From: Ferrovibrio sp. MS7
GTDB lineage: Bacteria; Pseudomonadota; Alphaproteobacteria; Ferrovibrionales; Ferrovibrionaceae
NCBI RefSeq assembly: GCF_038404985.1
Contig: NZ_JBBKBA010000002.1
Span: forward strand, 496,001 to 560,000
Direction of reading: 5' to 3'
DNA: 64,000 bases
Part shown: positions 17,460-28,345 of the stretch, one piece after another
Position numbering within the stretch: position 1 is the first letter of the stretch
Layout: each line of letters opens with the position of its first letter
Position numbers and translations under genes: made by a program
The notes under the pieces: model-generated
Told to the model about the DNA's origin: nothing
The model's database searches: none
The model's input: the letters and a program-made list of their open reading frames with translations, nothing else

Positions 17460-18725
17460 TCAGCCTGAAAGCTTATGCACTGGCATCGGTTTGGGGTGGC
17501 CGGGAAGCGGTTGCGGCGGCAGCGCCACAAGCCTGGCATCGTGGTAACCTGCCGCCTCGACAAGCGGAGTCGAGAGAACCAGCGGTGTCTCCAAGGCACG
17601 CGGTAATCGCGCGAGACGGCTGGCGACATTCACGGTATCGCCAATGACGGTATATTCCAGATGCGTGCCATCGCTGATCACGCCTGCGAACACATCCCCG
17701 AAATGCCCACCAATCGCGATACGAATGGGCGGCTTGCCCAGATTTTTGCGTTCCCGGGACCAGGCCTCGATTTCATCGACCATCGACAGAGCACAGAGTA
17801 TGGCCCGCTTTGCATCTTCCGGCGCCTGTCGTGGTGCGCCGAAGACCGCCATGACGGCGTCGCCGATGTATTTATCGACCACACCGCCATTGGCCAATAC
17901 TGGCCTGGAAATCCGCTCCCTGAAGTCCGAAACGAACTTGGCAAGCTCGCCAGGATCCATCGCCTCCGCCATGGCGGTGAAGCCTTGCAAGTCGGCAAAC
18001 AGCACCGCGGCGCGGATGCGATCGCCAAACTCAGGTGTTCCAGATGGCCTGTTCATCAGCTCTTCAGCGACGTCGCGGGAAAAGTAGCGAGACAAGGTGG
18101 CGGCCCGACTGGTGCTGACATAGACATTGGCAATCAGTCGCCTGGTTCGCGCGGTCGTTACCGCGAGAATGCCCATGGTCAGCAGGAAAATGATGATCGG
18201 AAAAACTCTGAAGTGCATCAGATGCCCTGCCGCATCCGTATGGAAGCCAGAGTCATCAACTTTGCTGACCATTGACGCGATCAGGACCACTGTCGCCAGG
18301 ATGCCGGCCGCAAACACCACCAGCCAAGGGTTGTAGCGAAGTGACGCATGGAGGAAGACTACGACAAGCAGGCCAGAGATCGGCAGCGTGAAAGCGTCAA
18401 TTGGCGAAATGCCTAATTCCGCCCCGATCATGACGATGGCAGTCGTCAAGGTGATGATGTCGAAGCCGACCAGGAAATAGGGTAGGATGGCGTGATGATA
18501 CTTCCTCCAGGCCGCATACAGGCCCCCAATGGTTCCGATGCCGTAAACCAGCACGGCCAACTCCAGTGGCCGGTGATCTGCTTCCTGCGTGCGTGCCGTA
18601 AAAACTGCGGCCAGCAGCGTCACCAGGATGATGGCGCGAATGATCGATGCTATCCGCTCGCTTTCGAGGTCGGATGCGATGAAGGCTTGCGTAAGGTCTT
18701 GTGGGAGGAATGTGCCTTCGGTCAT
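17460..18725 (-). CDS. Membrane-bound class III adenylate/guanylate cyclase
   Basis: A 421-residue protein with about six predicted membrane segments (residues 25-210) and a C-terminal class III cyclase domain (about 225-400). The domain keeps the two metal-binding aspartates (FADLQGFTA and YIGDAVMAVFG) and the transition-state Asn/Arg pair in GDTVNVASRL, so it should be active, making cAMP or less likely cGMP. The membrane part is not a recognised sensor. It lies between copZ and the MerR gene on the same strand, starts 281 bases from the MerR stop, and shows no proven link to metals. Confidence 0.82.
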   Translation of the reverse strand: MTEGTFLPQDLTQAFIASDLESERIASIIRAIILVTLLAAVFTARTQEADHRPLELAVLVYGIGTIGGLYAAWRKYHHAILPYFLVGFDIITLTTAIVMIGAELGISPIDAFTLPISGLLVVVFLHASLRYNPWLVVFAAGILATVVLIASMVSKVDDSGFHTDAAGHLMHFRVFPIIIFLLTMGILAVTTARTRRLIANVYVSTSRAATLSRYFSRDVAEELMNRPSGTPEFGDRIRAAVLFADLQGFTAMAEAMDPGELAKFVSDFRERISRPVLANGGVVDKYIGDAVMAVFGAPRQAPEDAKRAILCALSMVDEIEAWSRERKNLGKPPIRIAIGGHFGDVFAGVISDGTHLEYTVIGDTVNVASRLARLPRALETPLVLSTPLVEAAGYHDARLVALPPQPLPGHPKPMPVHKLSG

Positions 18726-19006: not shown

Positions 19007-19441
19007 TCACGCCTGGTCATGACGGCAATGGGCATGTCCAAAGTCCGCCAGTGTTTCGATGATGCGGCATTCAGCGACTTTGCCGGAGCCACATTCACCA
19101 ACCATCCGCTTCAGCTCTTTACGCAAGGCCTTGAGCTGCGAGATGCGTCGCTCGACGTTTTCGAGATGTTGCTGCGCGATTGCATTGACCGCATCGCAAC
19201 TCTGGTCCGGCTCGTCTGAGATGCGGATGATTTCCCGGATATCCCCGAGCGAAAAGCCAAGATCCCGGCTGTGCCTGATGAATTGCAGGCGTCGGAGATG
19301 ATTGGCGCCATATCGGCGCTGATTGCCTGCCGTCCTGGGAGGCTCTGGTAGCAGGCCTTCCTCTTCATAGTGACGGACAATCTGGACAGAGCAGCCGCTC
19401 TGGTCGGCAAGCTGTCCAATCGTAAGTGATTGATTTTTCAT
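19007..19441 (-). CDS. MerR-family divalent metal regulator (CadR/PbrR-like)
   Basis: A 144-residue MerR-family activator: winged helix-turn-helix (residues 7-75, TIGQLADQSGCSV then VRHYEEEGLL), dimerisation helix, and a C-terminal metal loop. Cys82 sits where divalent-ion sensors (ZntR, CadR, PbrR) have Cys and CueR has Ser; Cys117 and Cys125 complete the site, and a HAHC tail adds Cys139. It is therefore read as a Zn/Cd/Pb sensor, not as CueR. It is divergent from the transglutaminase-CDF-lspA genes and shares the operator between them. Confidence 0.87.
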   Translation of the reverse strand: MKNQSLTIGQLADQSGCSVQIVRHYEEEGLLPEPPRTAGNQRRYGANHLRRLQFIRHSRDLGFSLGDIREIIRISDEPDQSCDAVNAIAQQHLENVERRISQLKALRKELKRMVGECGSGKVAECRIIETLADFGHAHCRHDQA

Positions 19442-19476: not shown

Positions 19477-19507
19477 TTGAACCTACAATAGTTGTAGGCT
19501 GTACGGT
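19477..19507 (+). promoter_or_regulatory. MerR-type operator/promoter for the divalent-metal operon
   Basis: -35 TTGAAC (19477-19482), 19-bp spacer, -10 TACGGT (19502-19507). The spacer holds a perfect dyad, CCTACAA-TAG-TTGTAGG (19482-19498), close to the cadA/pbrA operators recognised by CadR and PbrR. It lies 36 bases upstream of the divergent merR gene and drives the gene at 19540. Confidence 0.9.
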
Positions 19508-19539
19508 GTCCGAAGTGAAATCAAATCAACAGGCGCACC

Positions 19540-20310
19540 ATGCTTGCGACCGACATTGCTTTCCGCGGCCACCAGCCCGTAACGCCCAACGAAGCCGAAT
19601 GCGTGTGCGAATTGCTGGAGCGCACGCCGTTGCTCGACTTCGACCATCCCAGCATCGTGGCCTTGATTGCCGAGCGCGGCTGGCGCGACATGGTTCGCGA
19701 AGACCGCGTGCAGGCAATTTATGAGTTCGTCCGTGACGAAATCCTGTTCGGCTACAACACCGACGACGATATTCCGGCGTCAGCCGTGCTGGCTGACGGC
19801 TACGGTCAATGCAACACCAAGGCGACCCTCTTCATGGCGCTGCTGCGCGCGGTCGGCATCTCCTGCCGATTCCACGGCTTCACCATTCACAAGCGCCTTC
19901 AGAAGGGCGCGGTCACTGGCCTGTTCTATCTGCTGGCGCCCGCCAACATTTTGCACAGCTGGGTCGAGGTTCAGATTGATGGCCGCTGGTTGAATCTCGA
20001 AGGCTTGATCCTGGATAACAAATATCTGCGGCAGCTTCAGGCCCGTTTTCCTGACTGCTCCGGAAGTTTCTGCGGATACGGCGTGTCCACCGCCGATTTC
20101 CGCAATCCGAAGACAGCATGGACGGGCCGAGATACCTATATCCAGGATAAAGGCATCAATCACGATTTCGGTCTATTCAATACCCCTGACGAGTTTTACG
20201 CCAAGGTCGGTACGAATATCAGGGGCTGGAAACGATGGTTCTACATCCACTACATCCGGCATGTGATGAACCGGAATGTCGCCCGCATCCGAAACGCAAT
20301 CATCAGGTAA
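19540..20310 (+). CDS. Transglutaminase-like protein in metal operon
   Basis: A 256-residue cytoplasmic protein with a transglutaminase-like fold. Cys91 (GYGQCNTKATLF) and His139 (ILHSWVEV) are the catalytic pair. The third residue, normally Asp four after the Trp of GRW, is Glu154 here. Cys at 21, 23, 109 and in DCSGSFCG gives extra thiols. Such proteins can be proteases, amidases or cross-linkers, so the reaction cannot be deduced. It is the first gene behind the MerR-type promoter and the next gene begins 2 bases after its stop, which strongly implies a metal-induced role. Confidence 0.78.
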   Translation: MLATDIAFRGHQPVTPNEAECVCELLERTPLLDFDHPSIVALIAERGWRDMVREDRVQAIYEFVRDEILFGYNTDDDIPASAVLADGYGQCNTKATLFMALLRAVGISCRFHGFTIHKRLQKGAVTGLFYLLAPANILHSWVEVQIDGRWLNLEGLILDNKYLRQLQARFPDCSGSFCGYGVSTADFRNPKTAWTGRDTYIQDKGINHDFGLFNTPDEFYAKVGTNIRGWKRWFYIHYIRHVMNRNVARIRNAIIR

Positions 20311-20312
20311 TC

Positions 20313-21185
20313 ATGTCCACCACGGCTGCACCGAAGGCATCTGATATTCAGTACCGCGTGACCGGTATGGATTGCTCCAGTTGTGCCACCAAGATTGAAG
20401 GCGCCACTCGAAAGATAACTGGTGTTAACGATGTCAGGGTATCAATCGCGTCTCAGATCATGACGCTCGACGTTGCGGAACCGGCGGTACAACTGCCTGA
20501 AGTCGAGCGGGCGGTGACAGGTCTGGGCTATCACCTTCAGCGCCTGGATACCGTAACGGATGGCGAAAACGATGAGCTGCCGAAAGACATATCGCATGTT
20601 GCACCAGCTTATCGGCGCGCGCTCTGGATTGTTGTGCTGCTGAATGTTGGCTACGGCATCGTGGAAGCGATGGGCGGTTTCTGGTCTGGTTCTCAAGCAC
20701 TGAAGGCCGATGCGCTCGATTTCCTGGGCGATGGTCTCATCACATTCCTCGGGCTACTGGCTATAGGGTGGAGTTTGGCGTGGCGTGCGCGTTCGGCTCT
20801 CATCCAGGGCCTGTTTCTTGGCGCACTGGGGCTCGCAGTCCTTGCCAATACGGCCTATCGGGTTCTGGTCTTGCATACGCCGGAAGCTGAGTTGATGGGC
20901 TTGTTCGGCCTTATCGCACTTGCTGTAAATGTCGCGGCTGCTGCTGTCCTGGTGCCGCATCGTGCGGGCGATGCCAATGTCAGAGCTGTTTGGCTATTCA
21001 GCCGGAATGATGCCATCGGCAATGCCGCCGTTGTCGTTGCTGCTGGCGTGGTCGCCTGGACGGATTCGGCATGGCCGGATCTGGTCGTTGCCATCGTTAT
21101 AGCAGGACTGTTCCTGCAATCGGCCTGGTCGATTGTGCGGGATGCGCGAAGTGACTTGGCCAGAGCAGGTAAAACATCGCTGTGA
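20313..21185 (+). CDS. HMA-domain cation diffusion facilitator
   Basis: A 290-residue protein that fuses an N-terminal HMA domain (GMDCSSC, Cys21 and Cys24) to a CDF-type membrane domain with about six membrane segments. The CDF TM2 site is ADALDFLGD and the TM5 site is SRNDAIGN, so aspartates replace the usual His/Asp mix. The C-terminal cytoplasmic CDF domain is missing and may be functionally replaced by the HMA domain. Expected role: export of a divalent ion (Zn, Cd, Pb or Co) into the periplasm. The ATG at 20313 follows the transglutaminase stop by 2 bases. Confidence 0.82.
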   Translation: MSTTAAPKASDIQYRVTGMDCSSCATKIEGATRKITGVNDVRVSIASQIMTLDVAEPAVQLPEVERAVTGLGYHLQRLDTVTDGENDELPKDISHVAPAYRRALWIVVLLNVGYGIVEAMGGFWSGSQALKADALDFLGDGLITFLGLLAIGWSLAWRARSALIQGLFLGALGLAVLANTAYRVLVLHTPEAELMGLFGLIALAVNVAAAAVLVPHRAGDANVRAVWLFSRNDAIGNAAVVVAAGVVAWTDSAWPDLVVAIVIAGLFLQSAWSIVRDARSDLARAGKTSL

Positions 21186-21655
21186 CGCCGCGTATTGCAG
21201 GATTTGTATGGGGCACCGCCGCGCTCCTCCTGGATCAGGCAAGTAAGGCAATTACCCTTGCCGCGGGCTCAGGTGATTCCACCTGGGCCATTCAGGTGAC
21301 CCCATTCTTCAATCTGATCCTGGTGCGCAATGACGGCGTCAGCTTTGGCCTGCTCGGCGGCCATATACCTTGGTGGGCACTGTCGATGTTTGCTCTCGTA
21401 GTCATCGCTTACCTCCTGTGGTGGCTCTGGCGAGAAGCCTCTTGGATCACATCCGCTGGGCTTGGGCTTATCATTGGGGGTGCCGTCGGCAATGTTCTGG
21501 ATAGATATCGGCACGGGGCCGTGACCGACTTTCTGGATTTCCATGCCTTCGGCTGGCACTGGCCCGCTTTCAATCTGGCGGACGTCGCCATTTTCGCCGG
21601 TGTCGCCTATATTCTTTGGGATGGTATTCACCCTCGGTCGCAAGAGCGGATGTAA
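21182..21655 (+). CDS. lspA: Signal peptidase II paralogue in metal operon
   Basis: A 157-residue four-helix membrane aspartyl protease that cleaves lipoprotein signals. The catalytic aspartates are in GNVLDR (Asp107) and FNLAD (Asp134). The GTG start overlaps the CDF stop by 4 bases (GTGA). In lead-resistance operons of the pbr type, an LspA homologue follows the transporter genes, so this is likely an accessory resistance copy rather than the housekeeping lspA, which is normally near ileS. Confidence 0.88.
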   Translation: MTPRIAGFVWGTAALLLDQASKAITLAAGSGDSTWAIQVTPFFNLILVRNDGVSFGLLGGHIPWWALSMFALVVIAYLLWWLWREASWITSAGLGLIIGGAVGNVLDRYRHGAVTDFLDFHAFGWHWPAFNLADVAIFAGVAYILWDGIHPRSQERM

Positions 21656-21760: not shown

Positions 21761-22132
21761 ATGAGGAAACTGAGTGCATTGGTCGCCGCAGGCCTATTCG
21801 CTTTCGCCGTTTCGGCGCAGGCGGACGAGGCGAAATACGGTGGCCAGGTCAAGAAAATCGGTTCTTACGAAGGCGAGCTGGTCGTCAAGGGTAGCGACGT
21901 CCATCTCTATGTCATCAAGGACCATAAGCCGATGAACCCGACGGCCTCTATGTCGGCCAATGTGCGCCTCTTCGTGAACAACGCTGAGAGCACGGTCGAG
22001 CTGAAGCCCGAAGGCAATAAGCTGGTTGGCAAGGCCGCAAGCCCCGCCGCCGGGAATGTTCGGGCCATGACAACCCTTGCTGATGGTGGTAAGGAAGTTG
22101 GCAAGGCTCAGTACAATCTGAACGTCAAGTAA
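21761..22132 (+). CDS. Small secreted protein upstream of czcCBA
   Basis: A 123-residue protein with a Sec signal (residues 1-22, SAQA) and a compact beta-rich body (YGGQVKKIG ... LYVIKDHKP ... VGKAASPAAG). No Cys in the mature part. I recognise no named family; proteins of this kind accompany Czc-type operons. GAGGT lies 6 bases before the ATG at 21761. Likely periplasmic accessory of the divalent-metal exporter. Confidence 0.65.
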   Translation: MRKLSALVAAGLFAFAVSAQADEAKYGGQVKKIGSYEGELVVKGSDVHLYVIKDHKPMNPTASMSANVRLFVNNAESTVELKPEGNKLVGKAASPAAGNVRAMTTLADGGKEVGKAQYNLNVK

Positions 22133-22157: not shown

Positions 22158-22541
22158 ATGAAAATCGGTATTTTCAGGCATTTTTTGGCAGGTCGGCGTT
22201 TCGCCGTCATTGTCACTGTGCTTGGCATGCTGTTCAGCGCGACTGTCGGCGCCTGGCATCTAGAGCATCCGGACATGGTCGCCGGTTTCAATGACCAAAC
22301 GACGGTATCGGCGTTCCAGTCGGGCGATAGTGCGTCGCAGGTCGATATCGATAAATCCAAGCCAGGTGCCAATGGAAGCCAGAACTGTGCTTCCCATTGT
22401 GAACAGCATGGTCGTGGCCTGCCGCATACCGTGGCCAGCCTGAATCACTCCATGCCCACGGCGCCCAAGCTCCTGGCCCTTAACGACAACGGCCTTGCCG
22501 TTGCGCAGCCTGACGGCCTTCTAGAACCTCCCAAAGCCTGA
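22158..22541 (+). CDS. Small His/Cys-containing membrane or secreted protein before czcC
   Basis: A 127-residue protein with an N-terminal hydrophobic segment (residues 15-33) and a polar tail containing NCASHCEQHGRGLPH and LNHSMP, a possible metal site. Family not recognised. It starts 26 bases after the previous gene and is followed by czcC after 65 bases, so it is part of the same unit. It resembles in layout the small proteins at 8448-8816 and 13719-14204. Confidence 0.6.
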   Translation: MKIGIFRHFLAGRRFAVIVTVLGMLFSATVGAWHLEHPDMVAGFNDQTTVSAFQSGDSASQVDIDKSKPGANGSQNCASHCEQHGRGLPHTVASLNHSMPTAPKLLALNDNGLAVAQPDGLLEPPKA

Positions 22542-22606
22542 TCCTTCGACTCTGAACACGACCTGGTGTGTCTGCGCCGGGAAACCTGTGTCTGTCCGAG
22601 GATTCC

Positions 22607-23845
22607 ATGCGCTTCTACAGCCTTTCCGCGCTCGCACTCTGCGTGGCGCTGACCTCAACTGCCTATGCGCAGACGGTCGAAATTCGCACGCTCGACGATG
22701 CCCTGCGCATTGCCGAGACCAATTCACCTCGCATTCGCGCGGCCGATGCCCGGCGCGAAGGAGCGACAGGCGACCGCATGCAGGCCAGTGCTTGGCCGAA
22801 CCCCGAGCTATTCGTCGATGCCGAGAACTTTGCGGGCAGTAAGGAGTATCGCGGCACCAACAACATCGAGCTGACGGCAGGCCTGTCCCAGCGTATCGAG
22901 ATTGGCGGTAAACGGCAGGCCCGCATTGATGCTGCCGAAGCCGGACTGACGCTCGCTACCCACGACCGCACGGCCGACCAGCTCGCCCTGCGAGACGAGG
23001 TCGCCAAGGCGTATATCGGCGCACTGTACGCGGCTCGCCTGGTGGCCCTGGAGGACGACCGGCTGAAGAACGCTCAGTCGTTGGCGGGCGCCATCCGTGA
23101 GCGTGTCCAGAACGGCCGAGAGTCTCCCGTCCAGTCTCGCAAAACCGACATCACTTTGGCGGCGGCTCAGGTCGCAAGCCAGAAAGCACAGCGCGAGCTA
23201 CAGGGCAGTCGGGCCGCTCTGACAGCCTTGCTGGGAGTGCCGAATGTCACGTTGGCGCTGAATTCTGGCTGGTTCGATCGTATCGGCGATGTCCCCGATG
23301 TAAGCCCCAATGAAGCCGCACTGGCCGAGAATCCGGACTTTGCCCGGCTAAACGCGACAATCGCCCAAGCGCGCGCTGGCGTGGACCGCGAGCGCGCTGC
23401 CGGTGTGCCGGACCCGACGCTCCGAGCGGGTATGCGTCGGTACAACGAAGATGGCGGCAATGCCCTGGTGGTGGGCTTGTCTATTCCCATCCCGGTCTTC
23501 GACCAGAACAGCGGAAACATCTTGCGTGCCCGCCAAGATCTGAATCGGGCTGAAGCCGAGGCCGATGCCATGCGGCTGACGTTGCTCGGCAACTTGGCGC
23601 GCGCCCGACAGACGCTGCTGGCGGCGCATAGCGAAGCCGAAGCCATGGGCAAGACGATTATACCTGCTGCCGATGAAGCTGCTGCTGCTGCCCGTGAAGG
23701 TTATTCCGCTGGCAAGTTCGGCTTCCTCGACCTGCTGGATGCCCAGCGGACCCAGTTCGACGTCAAAGCCCAGCATGCCACTGCGCTGCGCGACTATCAC
23801 CTGGCTCGTATCGAACTGATGCGCCTTGTTGGCCGCACTTACTGA
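22607..23845 (+). CDS. czcC: CzcC-type outer-membrane factor
   Basis: A 412-residue TolC-family protein with a Sec signal (residues 1-22, AYAQT) and two coiled-coil repeats. It is the outer-membrane channel of the CzcCBA divalent-cation pump. The ATG at 22607 is preferred over a GTG at 22568 because GAGGA lies just upstream and the signal peptide is then complete. The next gene starts 16 bases downstream. Confidence 0.9.
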   Translation: MRFYSLSALALCVALTSTAYAQTVEIRTLDDALRIAETNSPRIRAADARREGATGDRMQASAWPNPELFVDAENFAGSKEYRGTNNIELTAGLSQRIEIGGKRQARIDAAEAGLTLATHDRTADQLALRDEVAKAYIGALYAARLVALEDDRLKNAQSLAGAIRERVQNGRESPVQSRKTDITLAAAQVASQKAQRELQGSRAALTALLGVPNVTLALNSGWFDRIGDVPDVSPNEAALAENPDFARLNATIAQARAGVDRERAAGVPDPTLRAGMRRYNEDGGNALVVGLSIPIPVFDQNSGNILRARQDLNRAEAEADAMRLTLLGNLARARQTLLAAHSEAEAMGKTIIPAADEAAAAAREGYSAGKFGFLDLLDAQRTQFDVKAQHATALRDYHLARIELMRLVGRTY

Positions 23846-23861
23846 TTTCTCGGAGAACACC

Positions 23862-25076
23862 ATGCGCAATACCATCATCGCCCTGATCCTGGGCATCGCT
23901 CTGGGCATCGGCGGATCGGTCGTAGCCGTGAAGACCGGCCTGATTGGCGGTCATCATGAGGAAGAAGCCGGTGGGCACAGTCACGGCAAGACTGGCGGTG
24001 GCCATGGCCATGGTGAAGGCGAGGAAGAAGGCGACCCGCTCAAGCTGACGGCCGAGCAGATCCAGCAGTCCGGCATTACCGTTGCCGAGGCCACCGAGGG
24101 TGACCTGGTCCGCACCACGACCTTCCCGGGCACCGTGACGGCCAATCCCGACCGCATGGCGATTGTGGCGGCCAAGGCGTCCGGCGTTGTGATCGACCTG
24201 AAAAAGCGTCTGGGTGACACCGTTGCCAAGGGCGAGTTGCTGGCGACCATCGAGAGCCGGGAAATCGCCGAGGTGAAAGGCGAGCTGCTGGCTGCCCAGC
24301 GCACCGAAGCGCTGGCCCGTAACACTCACGACCGGGAAAAGAACCTCTGGGAGAAGAAAATCTCTTCCGAGCAGGATTTCCTGACGGCTCGGACTGCCCT
24401 GGAAGAAGCCCGCATTCGTGTCGACTTGGCCCGCCAGAAGCTTGCGGCGCTGGGTCTCAACCCGACGGACCTGGCACGCATGAGCGGTAGCGGCTCGGGT
24501 TTGCAAATCCTCGAAATCCGCAGCCCGATTGCGGGTCGCGTGGTCGAGCGCCGCGGAGCCATTGGCGCCTCCGTACCCGCCGAGACCGAACTCTTCACCA
24601 TCGCCGACCTATCGGCTGTCTGGGTCGAGGCCTCGGTGGCTCCCGGCGACCTCGCCTTCGTCAAGGAAGGCGAGGTCGTCAACATCGAAGGCCAGGCAAA
24701 TCCGGCCAAGGGCAAAGTCGTCTTCGTCAGCCCGGTCATCGATCGTGAGACCCGGCTGGCCAAGGTCCTTGTCGAAATCCCCAATGACGGCGGTAACTGG
24801 CGTCCCGGCGACTTTGCTTCCGTGACGGTGAACAGTTCGTCTGAGAAGGCTGGCATCCTGGTGCCCAAGGCCTCCATCCAGCGCATCAAGAAGGATCAGG
24901 TCGTATTCGTCCGTACCGATGAAGGCTTCGAGAAGCGCGAAGTTGTTCTCGGCCGAGCTGACGGCCGCCAGGTCGAAATCCGTTTCGGCGTCGATGCCGG
25001 TGAATTCGTCGCAGTCGAGAACTCTTTTGTTCTGAAGGCTCAGCTCGAAAAAGCTGAAGCCGAGCACGCTCACTGA
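23862..25076 (+). CDS. czcB: CzcB-type membrane fusion protein with His-rich N-terminus
   Basis: A 404-residue periplasmic adaptor. One membrane anchor (residues 4-24) is followed by a His/Glu-rich metal-binding stretch (GGHHEEEAGGHSHGK, then GGGHGHGEGEEEG), then biotinyl-lipoyl-like, hairpin and beta-barrel domains. It ends in HAH. GGAG precedes the ATG at 23862. Partners are the adjacent czcC and czcA. Confidence 0.92.
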   Translation: MRNTIIALILGIALGIGGSVVAVKTGLIGGHHEEEAGGHSHGKTGGGHGHGEGEEEGDPLKLTAEQIQQSGITVAEATEGDLVRTTTFPGTVTANPDRMAIVAAKASGVVIDLKKRLGDTVAKGELLATIESREIAEVKGELLAAQRTEALARNTHDREKNLWEKKISSEQDFLTARTALEEARIRVDLARQKLAALGLNPTDLARMSGSGSGLQILEIRSPIAGRVVERRGAIGASVPAETELFTIADLSAVWVEASVAPGDLAFVKEGEVVNIEGQANPAKGKVVFVSPVIDRETRLAKVLVEIPNDGGNWRPGDFASVTVNSSSEKAGILVPKASIQRIKKDQVVFVRTDEGFEKREVVLGRADGRQVEIRFGVDAGEFVAVENSFVLKAQLEKAEAEHAH

Positions 25077-25099
25077 TTGCTGCAGGCGGAACCAGAACA

Positions 25100-28000
25100 A
25101 TGATTGAGCATATTCTTCGCCTGTCGATCCGGCAGAGGTTGGTCGTCCTCATCCTGGTGGTCGGCGTCTGTATCCTGGGCGTTCAGTCCCTGCTGAAACT
25201 GCCTATCGATGCCGTACCCGACATCACCAACAACCAGGTGCAAATCAATGCCCTGGCGCCTGCGCTGTCTCCGACGGAAATCGAAAAGCAGGTCACGTAC
25301 CCCATTGAGAACGCCTTGGCCGGTATTCCTGGCCTGGAAAGCACCCGTTCGCTGTCTCGTAACGGCTTCGCGCAGGTCACGGCCATCTTCTCAGAGAAGA
25401 CGAACGTCTATTTCGCCCGCCAGCAGGTGAGCGAGAGACTGACCGAGGTGAAGGAGGGACTGCCTGAGGGCGTAGAGCCACGACTTGGCCCGATCACGAC
25501 TGGCCTAGGTGAAGTCTATATGTGGCTCGTGCGCTACAAAGAGCCGCGCCAGGCCGTGGCCGATGGCCAGCCCGGCTGGCAGAAGAACGGCACCTTCCGC
25601 ACGCCCGAAGGCGAAGTCCTCGATACCGAGATGAAGCAGGTCACTTATCTGCGCACGGTGCAGGACTGGCTGGTCAAGCCGCAGCTTCGCAGTGTGCAGG
25701 GGGTGGCCGGTATCGACTCTATCGGCGGTTACACCAAGGAATTCCATATCCAGCCCAAGCTGGACCGCCTCGTTGCCCAGGGCCTGACGCTCACGGATCT
25801 GTCCACTGCCATTCAGCGTAACAACACGGCCATCGGCGCCGGTTTCATGGAGCAGAATGGCGAAGGACTGGTCGTCCGCTCCTATGGCCGTCTGGAAAAC
25901 ATCGACGACATCGGCGCGGTCGTCGTCACCACCCGTGATGGCGTGCCGGTCTATGTTCGTGACGTCGCCGCCATCGACATCGGCCATGAGCTACGCACGG
26001 GTTCCGGCAGCTCAGGTGGCAAGGAAGTCGTGGTCGGCACTGCGATGATGCTGATTGGTGGGAACAGCCGCACGGTCGCCGAGAGCGTCGACAAGAAATT
26101 GAGCCAGATTAACGCCTCCCTGCCGCCCGGCGTGGAAGCAGCCCCGGTGCTGAACCGCACAAAGCTGGTGGACGCTACGGTCGCCACGGTGGAGAAGAAC
26201 CTGGCCGAAGGCGCACTGCTGGTCGTCGTGGTGCTTTTCCTGTTCCTCGGCAATATCCGTGCCGCGCTGATTACCGCAGCCGTTATTCCCATCACCATGC
26301 TGATGACGGCGACCGGCATGCTCAAAGGGCATATCAGCGCCAACCTGATGAGCCTGGGTGCGCTGGACTTCGGGTTGATTGTCGATGGCGCCGTCATCAT
26401 TGCTGAGAACTGTCTGCGTCACCTGGCGGACAAGCAACATGAGCTGAAGCGGGTACTGACCCGGCGGGAACGTATGCTGGAGGTGATGGTCGCCTCGAAG
26501 GAGATGATTCAGCCGTCTGTCTTCGGCCAGGCCATCATCATCATCGTCTACGTCCCGATGCTTACCTTCACGGGCGTCGAGGGCAAGATGTTCGAGCCCA
26601 TGGCCCTGACGGTCATCATCGCACTGGCCTGTGCCTTCGTGCTGTCGCTGACCTTTGTCCCGGCCATGATTGCCCTGTTCGTGAGCGGCCCGGTCAAGGA
26701 GAAGGAAAGCCGCTTCATGGTGGCCGCCCAGACCCGCTATCGGGCCATCCTTGAGAAGGTGGTTCATATGCCGGGCCGGGTGGGTATCGCCGCAGCCGGG
26801 TTGTTTGCGGCGTCCCTGCTGGTCATGACCCAGCTCGGGCAGGAGTTCATTCCGCAACTGGATGAAAAAGATATCGCCATGCATGCGATGCGCATCCCCA
26901 GCACGTCGCTGGACCAGTCCTCCAAGATGCAGTTGCTCGTCGAAAAGGCGGTCTCCGGCTTCCCCGAAGTTGTGACCGTATTTGCCAAGACGGGCACTGC
27001 CGAAGTGGCTGCTGACCCGATGCCGCCGAACGTCTCGGACACCTTCATCATCCTGAAGCCGCAGAAGGAGTGGCCGAACCCGAGCAAGACCAAGGCAGAA
27101 CTTGTCGCCGAGATTGAGCGGGCAGTGAAGCAGGTGCCGGGGAACAACTATGAGTTCACCCAGCCGATCCAGATGCGCTTCAACGAGCTCATTGCCGGTG
27201 TCCGCTCGGATATCGCGGTGAAGGTCTACGGTGACGATTTTGACACGCTGCTGGAAACAGCCAATGCCGTTGCTTCAGTGATGCGCGGCGTGCCGGGAGC
27301 CAGTGACGTCAAGGTCGAGCAGGCTGCCGGTCTGCCGTATCTCGACATCAACCTGAAGAAGCGCGAAATCGCCCGGCGCGGCCTGTCGGTCGCCGATGTG
27401 CAGGATGTCATCGCCACCGCCATCGGTGGCAACGAGGTGGGCGTGCTGTTCGAGGGCGACAAGCGCTTCGATATTGTGGTGCGCCTGTCCGATGCCGCCC
27501 GCAGCGACCTGGAGGTGCTGCGCAACCTGCCGGTGCCGGTGATTCTACCCAACAGCAACCAGGCGATCACCATCCCGCTGCGGCAGCTTGCCGATATCGC
27601 CATCAGCGAGGGGCCGAACCAGATCAGCCGCGAGAACGGCAAGCGGCGCGTGGTGGTGCAGGCCAACGTGCGCGGCCGGGATATCGGCTCGGTGGTGCAG
27701 GATGCCCAGGCGCGGATTGCCGCGCAGGTGCAGTTGCCGTCTGGCTACTGGCTGGGCTGGGGCGGGCAATACGAGAATCTACTGGCAGCCCGAGACACCT
27801 TGGTCCTGGTGGTGCCGCTGTGCTTCGCCGCCATCTTCTTCCTGTTGTTCATGGCGCTTGGGAGCGTACGGGACTCGCTGATCGTCTACAGCGGCATTCC
27901 CTTTGCACTCGTTGGCGGCATCCTGGCGCTGGCTTTACGCGGCATGCCGATATCGGTCTCGGCCATCGTCGGCTTCATCGCGCTCAGCGGGATTGCCGTG

Positions 28001-28345
28001 CTGAACGGCCTGGTGATGGTAACCCGGTTCCAGCAGGAACTGGCCGAGGGCGTCGAGAAGATCGCCGCAGTCATTGAGGGTGCCGAAGTCCGCCTGCGGC
28101 CGGTGCTTATCACGGCACTGGTGGCCTCCCTCGGCTTTGTGCCAATGGCCATTGCCACAGGCACTGGTGCCGAAGTTCAGCGCCCGATTGCCACGGTCGT
28201 CATTGGTGGCCTGATCAGTTCCACCATCCTAACCCTGTTGGTCTTACCTGCGCTTTACGCACGATTTGGCGCGGGCCGCCGTCAAATCGATGATGAAGTC
28301 GATGAGGTAGATGTCCATGCGCCACACGGACATCCGTCAGAATAG
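25100..28345 (+). CDS. czcA: CzcA-type divalent cation RND pump
   Basis: A 1081-residue inner-membrane RND transporter using proton influx to drive export of divalent cations such as Co, Zn or Cd. The TM4 motif is DFGLIVDGAVIIAEN starting at Asp423, the DFGxxxDGAxxxxEN signature of the CzcA/CnrA class; this separates it clearly from the Cus pump at 2667-5783. The first membrane segment is at residues 12-30. The C-terminus is acidic and His-containing (DEVDEVDVHAPHGHP). It follows czcB by 23 bases. Confidence 0.93.
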   Translation: MIEHILRLSIRQRLVVLILVVGVCILGVQSLLKLPIDAVPDITNNQVQINALAPALSPTEIEKQVTYPIENALAGIPGLESTRSLSRNGFAQVTAIFSEKTNVYFARQQVSERLTEVKEGLPEGVEPRLGPITTGLGEVYMWLVRYKEPRQAVADGQPGWQKNGTFRTPEGEVLDTEMKQVTYLRTVQDWLVKPQLRSVQGVAGIDSIGGYTKEFHIQPKLDRLVAQGLTLTDLSTAIQRNNTAIGAGFMEQNGEGLVVRSYGRLENIDDIGAVVVTTRDGVPVYVRDVAAIDIGHELRTGSGSSGGKEVVVGTAMMLIGGNSRTVAESVDKKLSQINASLPPGVEAAPVLNRTKLVDATVATVEKNLAEGALLVVVVLFLFLGNIRAALITAAVIPITMLMTATGMLKGHISANLMSLGALDFGLIVDGAVIIAENCLRHLADKQHELKRVLTRRERMLEVMVASKEMIQPSVFGQAIIIIVYVPMLTFTGVEGKMFEPMALTVIIALACAFVLSLTFVPAMIALFVSGPVKEKESRFMVAAQTRYRAILEKVVHMPGRVGIAAAGLFAASLLVMTQLGQEFIPQLDEKDIAMHAMRIPSTSLDQSSKMQLLVEKAVSGFPEVVTVFAKTGTAEVAADPMPPNVSDTFIILKPQKEWPNPSKTKAELVAEIERAVKQVPGNNYEFTQPIQMRFNELIAGVRSDIAVKVYGDDFDTLLETANAVASVMRGVPGASDVKVEQAAGLPYLDINLKKREIARRGLSVADVQDVIATAIGGNEVGVLFEGDKRFDIVVRLSDAARSDLEVLRNLPVPVILPNSNQAITIPLRQLADIAISEGPNQISRENGKRRVVVQANVRGRDIGSVVQDAQARIAAQVQLPSGYWLGWGGQYENLLAARDTLVLVVPLCFAAIFFLLFMALGSVRDSLIVYSGIPFALVGGILALALRGMPISVSAIVGFIALSGIAVLNGLVMVTRFQQELAEGVEKIAAVIEGAEVRLRPVLITALVASLGFVPMAIATGTGAEVQRPIATVVIGGLISSTILTLLVLPALYARFGAGRRQIDDEVDEVDVHAPHGHPSE

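Follow-up and report, generated by a model that had tools for sequence, protein, structure and literature searches.

The window analyzed here, a 64,000-nucleotide stretch from Ferrovibrio sp. MS7 (assembly GCF_038404985.1, contig NZ_JBBKBA010000002.1, positions 496,001 to 560,000 of the forward strand), contains a gene for a transglutaminase-like protein (TGL), which stands directly ahead of a metal exporter gene and behind a divergent MerR-family regulator gene. Genes of this type were repeatedly found beside metal exporter genes in other bacteria, and the residues of the putative active site were conserved. We tentatively favor, at a little under an even chance, the interpretation that TGL is an accessory of cadmium-, zinc-, or lead-type export operons, namely a cytosolic amidase or acyltransferase with a Cys-His-Glu triad, induced by metal, whose target is a peptide or protein. 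The features of the locus are as follows, in window positions:

19540-20310, plus strand: TGL, 256 amino acids, an open reading frame with a PF01841 match, stop codon at 20308-20310
19007-19441, minus strand: divergent MerR-family regulator, CadR/PbrR/ZntR-like (PF09278/PF13411), with Cys82, Cys117, and Cys125
19477-19507, plus strand: predicted MerR-type promoter (TTGAAC, 19-nt spacer, TACGGT) with a dyad inside
19482-19498, strand-neutral: perfect 7-3-7 dyad CCTACAA-TAG-TTGTAGG, from the sequence letters and shuffles
20313-21185, plus strand: HMA-CDF cation exporter with an HMA domain and a CDF membrane domain, ATG at 20313, stop codon at 21183-21185
21182-21655, plus strand: LspA (signal peptidase II), GTG start at 21182, PF01252 match at 1e-35

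Only 2 nt separate TGL from the HMA-CDF gene, whose stop codon overlaps the GTG start of lspA. The exporter, searched as a longer open reading frame from 20235, gave Pfam E values of 3e-11 for PF00403 and 2e-18 for PF01545; it passed the cut-off of the latter (67.3 versus 26.6 bits) and scored slightly below that of TIGR01297 (76 versus 82.35). LspA passed the equivalog cut-off of TIGR00077 (109.3 versus 73.95 bits) and is the second of two PF01252 copies in the genome. These results bear out the first-pass annotation, made from the letters of the window, in placing TGL against an HMA-CDF exporter and an LspA paralog. Its broader description of a MerR-controlled metal operon headed by TGL held for the gene layout and for the tie of the family to metal exporters, and the MerR-driven, metal-induced promoter is a prediction.

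The perfect MerR-type dyad reported ahead of TGL was recovered at exactly the same positions, with arms of 7 nt and a center of 3 nt, and when the 98-nt intergenic stretch was shuffled 300 times by plain single-base shuffling, 1.7% of the shuffles contained an equally good dyad. It lies between the hexamers TTGAAC (19477-19482) and TACGGT (19502-19507), which were chosen by us, and a simple sigma-70 scan, which allows spacers of 16-18 nt, did not flag this promoter. Transcription would be driven by MerR and induced by metal. The best regulator model for the window MerR was TIGR02047 (CadR-PbrR); judging from its sequence, the protein may work as such a regulator, although its score of 123.5 bits is below the equivalog cut-off of 151.45. 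Its Cys82, Cys117, and Cys125, which would bind the metal, were all present in 9 of the 11 MerR rows that could be used, the window among them, with the L023 row left out of the alignment; the third Cys was missing in L042 and L043. Beyond the window, the dyad test with single-base shuffles covered 15 loci, and a rate of 2% or less was obtained in five further loci (L004, L012, L025, L042, and L052). The dyads stand directly upstream of TGL in Acinetobacter L042 (GACTCTATAGTTACTATAGAGTC), L052 (ACCCTATAGTTACTATAGGGT), and L012 (AACCTCTAGTGACTAGAGGTT); that of L025 is at the edge of the stretch upstream of an ATPase gene. A shorter dyad, CTCTAG-3-CTAGAG or nearly identical, was common to seven loci (L013, L014, L016, L018, L020, L021, and L059) and is weak and individually not significant, arising in 12-17% of shuffles each. 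Nothing was found by the test in L023 and L043.

The PF01841 (Transglut_core) family covers TGL residues 54-154 with an E value of 5.2e-16 and 59.3 bits against a cut-off of 23. In an alignment of 18 members (A1), which were not picked by their triad residues and whose start codons were chosen by us, PF01841 matched every member, and Cys91, His139, Glu154, and Cys178 were invariant. The assignment of a transglutaminase fold with Cys91 and His139 is therefore well founded. In a larger set of 54 aligned family rows, which were picked by a motif containing Cys91 and, in one of two options, His139, the residues His139, Glu154, Asp159, Gln202, Arg240, and Asn244 were invariant, Cys178 was kept in 50 rows, and Cys109 in 46; several alignment and tree rows are near-duplicates, and these counts are consequently not independent. 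The classical triad, with Asp at the third position, does not describe this protein, since Glu154 takes that position in all 54 rows. The two rows of a sister-group outgroup carried Asp at 154 and lacked a Cys at 178. Therefore, the substitution noted in the first-pass annotation was correctly located but is no peculiarity of this copy: it marks a subfamily, which Glu154 and Cys178 together define well.

The sister group consists of "GYGQCNTK" transglutaminase-like proteins of about 230 residues (L061 and L062), which share with TGL the core, the GQCN motif, Asp159, Gln202, and Asn244, and differ from it in the third-position Asp and the lack of Cys178. None of the neighbor queries matched around these two loci. 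At L061:6995-8319, the Asp-form gene lies directly 5' of a GyrI-like gene (PF06445).

The AlphaFold2 (AF2) model of TGL had a predicted local distance difference test score (pLDDT) of 84.9 and a predicted template-modeling score (pTM) of 0.85, with residues 1-17 poorly modeled. The best Foldseek match was 3isr (E 2.6e-5), a putative cysteine protease of Cytophaga hutchinsonii, which in the VIA comparison aligned over 164 residues with a Z score of 12.5 and a root-mean-square deviation of 4.2, the next rows scoring 9.1. The two proteins share the fold and, inside the PF01841 match, the placement of Cys and His; TGL differs in its third-position Glu, in about 100 extra C-terminal residues bearing Gln202, Arg240, and Asn244 (54 of 54 rows), in having no signal-like N-terminus, and in its operon context. 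A single-sequence search of solved structures with TGL returned nothing up to E 1, and a profile search gave only three rows (E 0.24-0.36), 3isr among them. PADLOC, run on three members, gave no match. In the favored interpretation, TGL would most likely be a working Cys-His-Glu cysteine enzyme of the transglutaminase/papain-like type.

The coupling of TGL to metal exporters was seen on genome contigs and on plasmids. A metal exporter adjoins TGL in 12 of 18 genome-contig loci (L004, L005, L009, L010, L012-L018, and L021). An AraC regulator is the partner in L006, L007, and L008, neither a metal nor an AraC partner occurs in L011, L020 combines TGL with MerR and an SMR transporter gene, and in L019 the contig ends behind TGL, with MerR upstream. 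TGL is also common on plasmids, with 204 matching records, 179 of them over at least 80% of the protein; 63 belong to one species group, and the weakest matches are distant relatives. Where these records carry an annotation for the gene, its name is "transglutaminase," "transglutaminase family protein," or "transglutaminase-like domain-containing protein," and for some weak matches "hypothetical protein." In 11 plasmid regions, chosen for their spread of organisms and not randomly, a CDF or P-type ATPase gene adjoins TGL in 10 (the CDF of L047 was detected by tblastn), and MerR is its only partner in L043. TGL runs 11-14 bp into the CDF gene in six annotated plasmid loci. Both regulators (MerR, Fur, ArsR, or AraC) and exporters (CDF or P-type ATPase) vary, in arrangements such as MerR-TGL-CDF, Fur-TGL-ATPase, ATPase-TGL, and, in one spirochete, CDF-AraC-TGL with an upstream ATPase. 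On a plasmid of Acinetobacter schindleri (L047:5001-6586), the copy looks broken: the matches to TGL and to CDF are each split into two overlapping pieces, and the record annotates no gene there. In several alphaproteobacterial-type TGL operons (L045, L046, L055, and L059), an ICMT/PEMT-like methyltransferase gene lies behind CDF, followed in L045 and L046 by an L,D-transpeptidase gene. The single match among viral contigs, L115, lies on a contig as long (31,283) as that of L009, has the same identity and query range, and therefore probably comes from the same spirochete.

Relatives beyond the seed genomes were sampled in four phyla (n = 30). In the window's phylum, Pseudomonadota, 15 of 398 genomes had a TGL match, its own genome included; the 13 close relatives in other genomes comprised nine with MerR and CDF, three with AraC, and one beside ccoP, and two further matches (L061 and L062, 33-37% identity) were those of the sister group. 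TGL is sparse in the window's class, as 2 of 385 genomes matched, one of them its own. In the phylum of the Marinilabilia locus (395 genomes), a Fur-TGL-ATPase locus (L125) and one distant match were found beyond the seed, and in that of the Lachnospiraceae locus (398 genomes), the AraC-linked L126 and L127 and L128 without such a partner. The phylum of the Spirochaetales locus had matches in 19 of 335 genomes, seed included. Among the 13 members examined there (E 1e-55 or better, seed excluded), one was metal-linked and also AraC-linked (L152), four more were AraC-linked, and eight were neither, four of which (L137-L139 and L141) cluster phylogenetically with Treponema vincentii. In L152, CzcA, P-type ATPase, CDF, and AraC genes form one run with TGL last; its CDF was considered as an HMA-CDF and rejected, as it matched PF01545 only and is a plain CDF. 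The other five genomes held distant matches only, and the two inspected (L165 and L166) both adjoin an AraC gene. Pooled over the four phyla, 11 of 30 relatives were metal-linked, 10 were AraC-linked (one being both), and 10 were neither. Thus, the family as a whole lies mostly outside metal operons, but this does not apply to Pseudomonadota (9 of 13 metal-linked) or to the plasmid regions (10 of 11).

As a control, the same queries were applied to 20 regions around other PF01841 genes, chosen from a list in 11 of 14 genomes (G467, G499, and G685 have no other PF01841 gene). No region had a metal, MerR, or AraC match at 1e-5, and the single match obtained, in L114, was to TGL itself and was weak. 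The exporter link is therefore not general to transglutaminase-like genes or to these genomes. Additionally, an AraC regulator partners TGL in members of four phyla, for the most part where metal genes are absent (L006, L007, L008, L053, L058, L060, L126, L127, and L152-L156; in L152 it lies between CDF and TGL). All 15 aligned AraC neighbors have in their N-terminal part an H-x-H motif plus one more His. Because H-x-H is common in AraC cupin domains, we make no metal-sensor claim for this partner.

In the tree, the window TGL, L004 (93% identity), and a paralog on the same contig form one clade (support 96/97), and AraC-linked rows are scattered over several places. With context labels assigned by us from the neighborhoods, at least four changes between metal- and AraC-linked states were counted, and at least seven between metal-linked and all others, a pattern that we interpret as metal partners having been joined or lost several times. 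The tree lost 4 of 60 rows (L005, L046, L143, and L144) and excluded L010, L133, L140, and the distant or partial L145-L151.

The paralog (G000:C2:480503-481213; L002 and L063) has 67% identity to the window copy and lies about 34 kb from it. It is located behind a MerR gene and is followed by counterparts of two small genes and by a CzcCBA set, whose equivalents downstream of lspA in the window are as follows:

21761-22132, plus strand: small predicted secreted protein, 75% identity to its counterpart behind the paralog
22158-22541, plus strand: small protein, 35% identity to its counterpart at the paralog locus, no Pfam match
22568-23845, plus strand: CzcCBA-type outer-membrane factor, within an RND efflux set at 22568-28345
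23826-25076, plus strand: CzcCBA-type adaptor of the same set
25100-28345, plus strand: CzcCBA-type RND pump of the same set

No HMA-CDF or LspA match was found between the paralog and its following genes, and its upstream stretch showed, by eye, an imperfect dyad only; a ZntA-like ATPase gene lies beyond its MerR. At this locus, TGL thus remains associated with MerR and Czc although CDF and LspA are lacking. The two TGL copies and two Czc sets, about 34 kb apart, apparently belong to one large metal-resistance region. The window Czc genes (PF02321, PF16576, and PF00873) were named by us, guided in part by their matches to L041 genes that carry CzcA and adaptor annotations. They are on the same strand as the TGL operon and possibly on the same transcript, and a simple scan for terminators detected none between lspA and the gene that follows. 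The small secreted protein, present behind both TGL genes (L063:6019-6330 at the paralog), had no Pfam family above its cut-off and may be a periplasmic Czc-operon protein not described before. On the other side of the operon, a gene with a Guanylate_cyc domain (adenylate cyclase type; window 17460-18725, minus strand) lies between an HMA protein gene and MerR, and a 91% identical copy adjoins the L004 operon.

In the first 45 residues, the highest 15-residue hydropathy of the 18 A1 members ranged from -0.09 to 1.12, against 1.71 and 2.16 in two secreted controls; by this simple test, with author-chosen starts, none of the 18 had a hydrophobic N-terminal stretch like the controls. TGL is accordingly taken as cytosolic, which its sequence makes probable. 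The first-pass annotation had suggested an envelope protein as a target. A role in modifying or cleaving envelope proteins together with LspA could draw on the lspA gene that follows in the window and in L004, and on the L,D-transpeptidase genes in the vicinity of three alphaproteobacterial plasmid copies (L044-L046), two of which also have ICMT-like genes nearby. However, LspA occurs in few other TGL loci (matched in L004, L044, and L055, annotated in L042) and not at the paralog, and with the N-termini described above this role appears very improbable.

The mechanism that we consider for TGL as an export accessory would begin with metal binding to the divergent MerR, which would switch on TGL, the exporter, and LspA together. 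Remaining in the cytosol, TGL would use Cys91 as a nucleophile with His139, and with Glu154 in the role of Asp, to cleave or transfer an amide bond of a peptide or protein important under metal stress. For example, ahead of export it might strip the metal from a metal-loaded thiol peptide or damaged protein, or dispose of that molecule altogether. Several observations weigh against this interpretation. Only the above-mentioned 11 of 30 sampled relatives are metal-linked, and TGL chemistry thus need not concern metal. Moreover, the neighbor queries of the control came from the window and the TGL loci, which favors the TGL loci, and distant exporters could be missed in both sets. The match to 3isr has only 13-20% identity and a template-modeling score of at most 0.46.

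Since this type of protein also occurs beside AraC without metal genes, it may have started as a general stress enzyme and entered metal operons on more than one occasion. A rival explanation goes further: metal islands are mobile, and TGL would be a general stress or detoxification enzyme carried in them as a passenger with no part in metal resistance, as the pooled sample and the L020 member with its SMR transporter gene might suggest. The empty control regions, the overlap of TGL with the CDF start in all six annotated plasmid loci with CDF downstream, and the pairing of different exporters and regulators on separate branches nevertheless make this passenger role unlikely. Alternatively, TGL could be a non-catalytic metal buffer or chaperone in which Cys91, Cys178, His139, and Glu154 bind a soft metal and hand it to the exporter. 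The retention of Cys178 outside the classical triad, the replacement of Asp by Glu, and the tight coupling with exporter genes agree with such a function, but Gln90, Cys91, His139, and the fold are features of a transglutaminase-like enzyme, and AraC-linked members without exporters also keep Glu154 and His139; we regard it as quite unlikely.

The thiol-peptide role raised in the first-pass annotation has lost ground. Phytochelatin synthase has a Cys-His-Asp papain-like fold and resembles TGL in its metal-stress context and in being a Cys-His-acid enzyme, and an enzyme like it, or like a glutathione peptidase, could remake or cleave metal-holding glutathione or gamma-Glu-Cys peptides and feed the HMA-CDF exporter. 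In support, the window's genome has three PF04107 (GCS2) matches, and glutathione synthetase (PF02955) was present in 6 of 11 TGL hosts, including all five proteobacterial hosts checked (G331, G467, G593, G744, and G751), and was not found in G746-G750. PF04107 was detected in five of nine hosts (weak and partial in G746 and G747; not found in G744, G748, G749, and G750), and Glu_cys_ligase (PF04262) in one of nine (G744). However, all three families were missing in the spirochete hosts G748 and G749 (Spirochaetales, ATPase-TGL), which are possibly incomplete metagenome-assembled genomes and make this absence weak, and in G750 (Treponema vincentii), a complete genome whose TGL is not metal-linked. 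Therefore, glutathione is hardly a general TGL substrate, unless it is imported or made by other genes. Additionally, with Pfam at E up to 1, the 18 A1 members matched only four chance-level families beyond PF01841, phytochelatin synthase not among them. The 50 matches listed in the VIA comparison do not name this enzyme either, but related families may be missing from such a list. TGL differs from phytochelatin synthase in family and in occurring in some hosts without the glutathione-synthesis families searched, and we consider such a role quite improbable.

A wider proposal, which we regard as doubtful at present, is that the Cys-His-Glu subfamily with its second conserved Cys would constitute an enzymatic component, so far unrecognized but widely shared, of soft-metal efflux systems across at least three phyla; it would work in the cytosol with CDF and P-type exporters by amide-bond chemistry on a non-glutathione peptide or protein metal ligand. 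Sensors, pumps, and binding proteins are the usual account of bacterial resistance to cadmium, zinc, and lead; if metal operons also contain a conserved enzyme gene, often overlapping the pump gene, a chemical step would accompany efflux.

Full-text literature searches, whose coverage excludes most subscription papers, yielded, among the papers listed, no description of a transglutaminase-like gene in a metal operon; those papers either lacked the transglutaminase term or, judged by title, seemed to contain the words for unrelated reasons. The locus joins a known fold and a known operon type in a pairing that these searches did not show to be described. According to the main text of PMC11580412, in which the word transglutaminase does not occur, cadA and cadC of Cupriavidus metallidurans are transcribed together, with CadC predicted to be a prolipoprotein signal peptidase. 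Operons of this cad/pbr type, with CadR or PbrR, an exporter, and LspA as in cadA-cadC, resemble the window in the divergent MerR, the metal exporter, and the signal peptidase II, whereas the window differs from them in its transglutaminase-like first gene.

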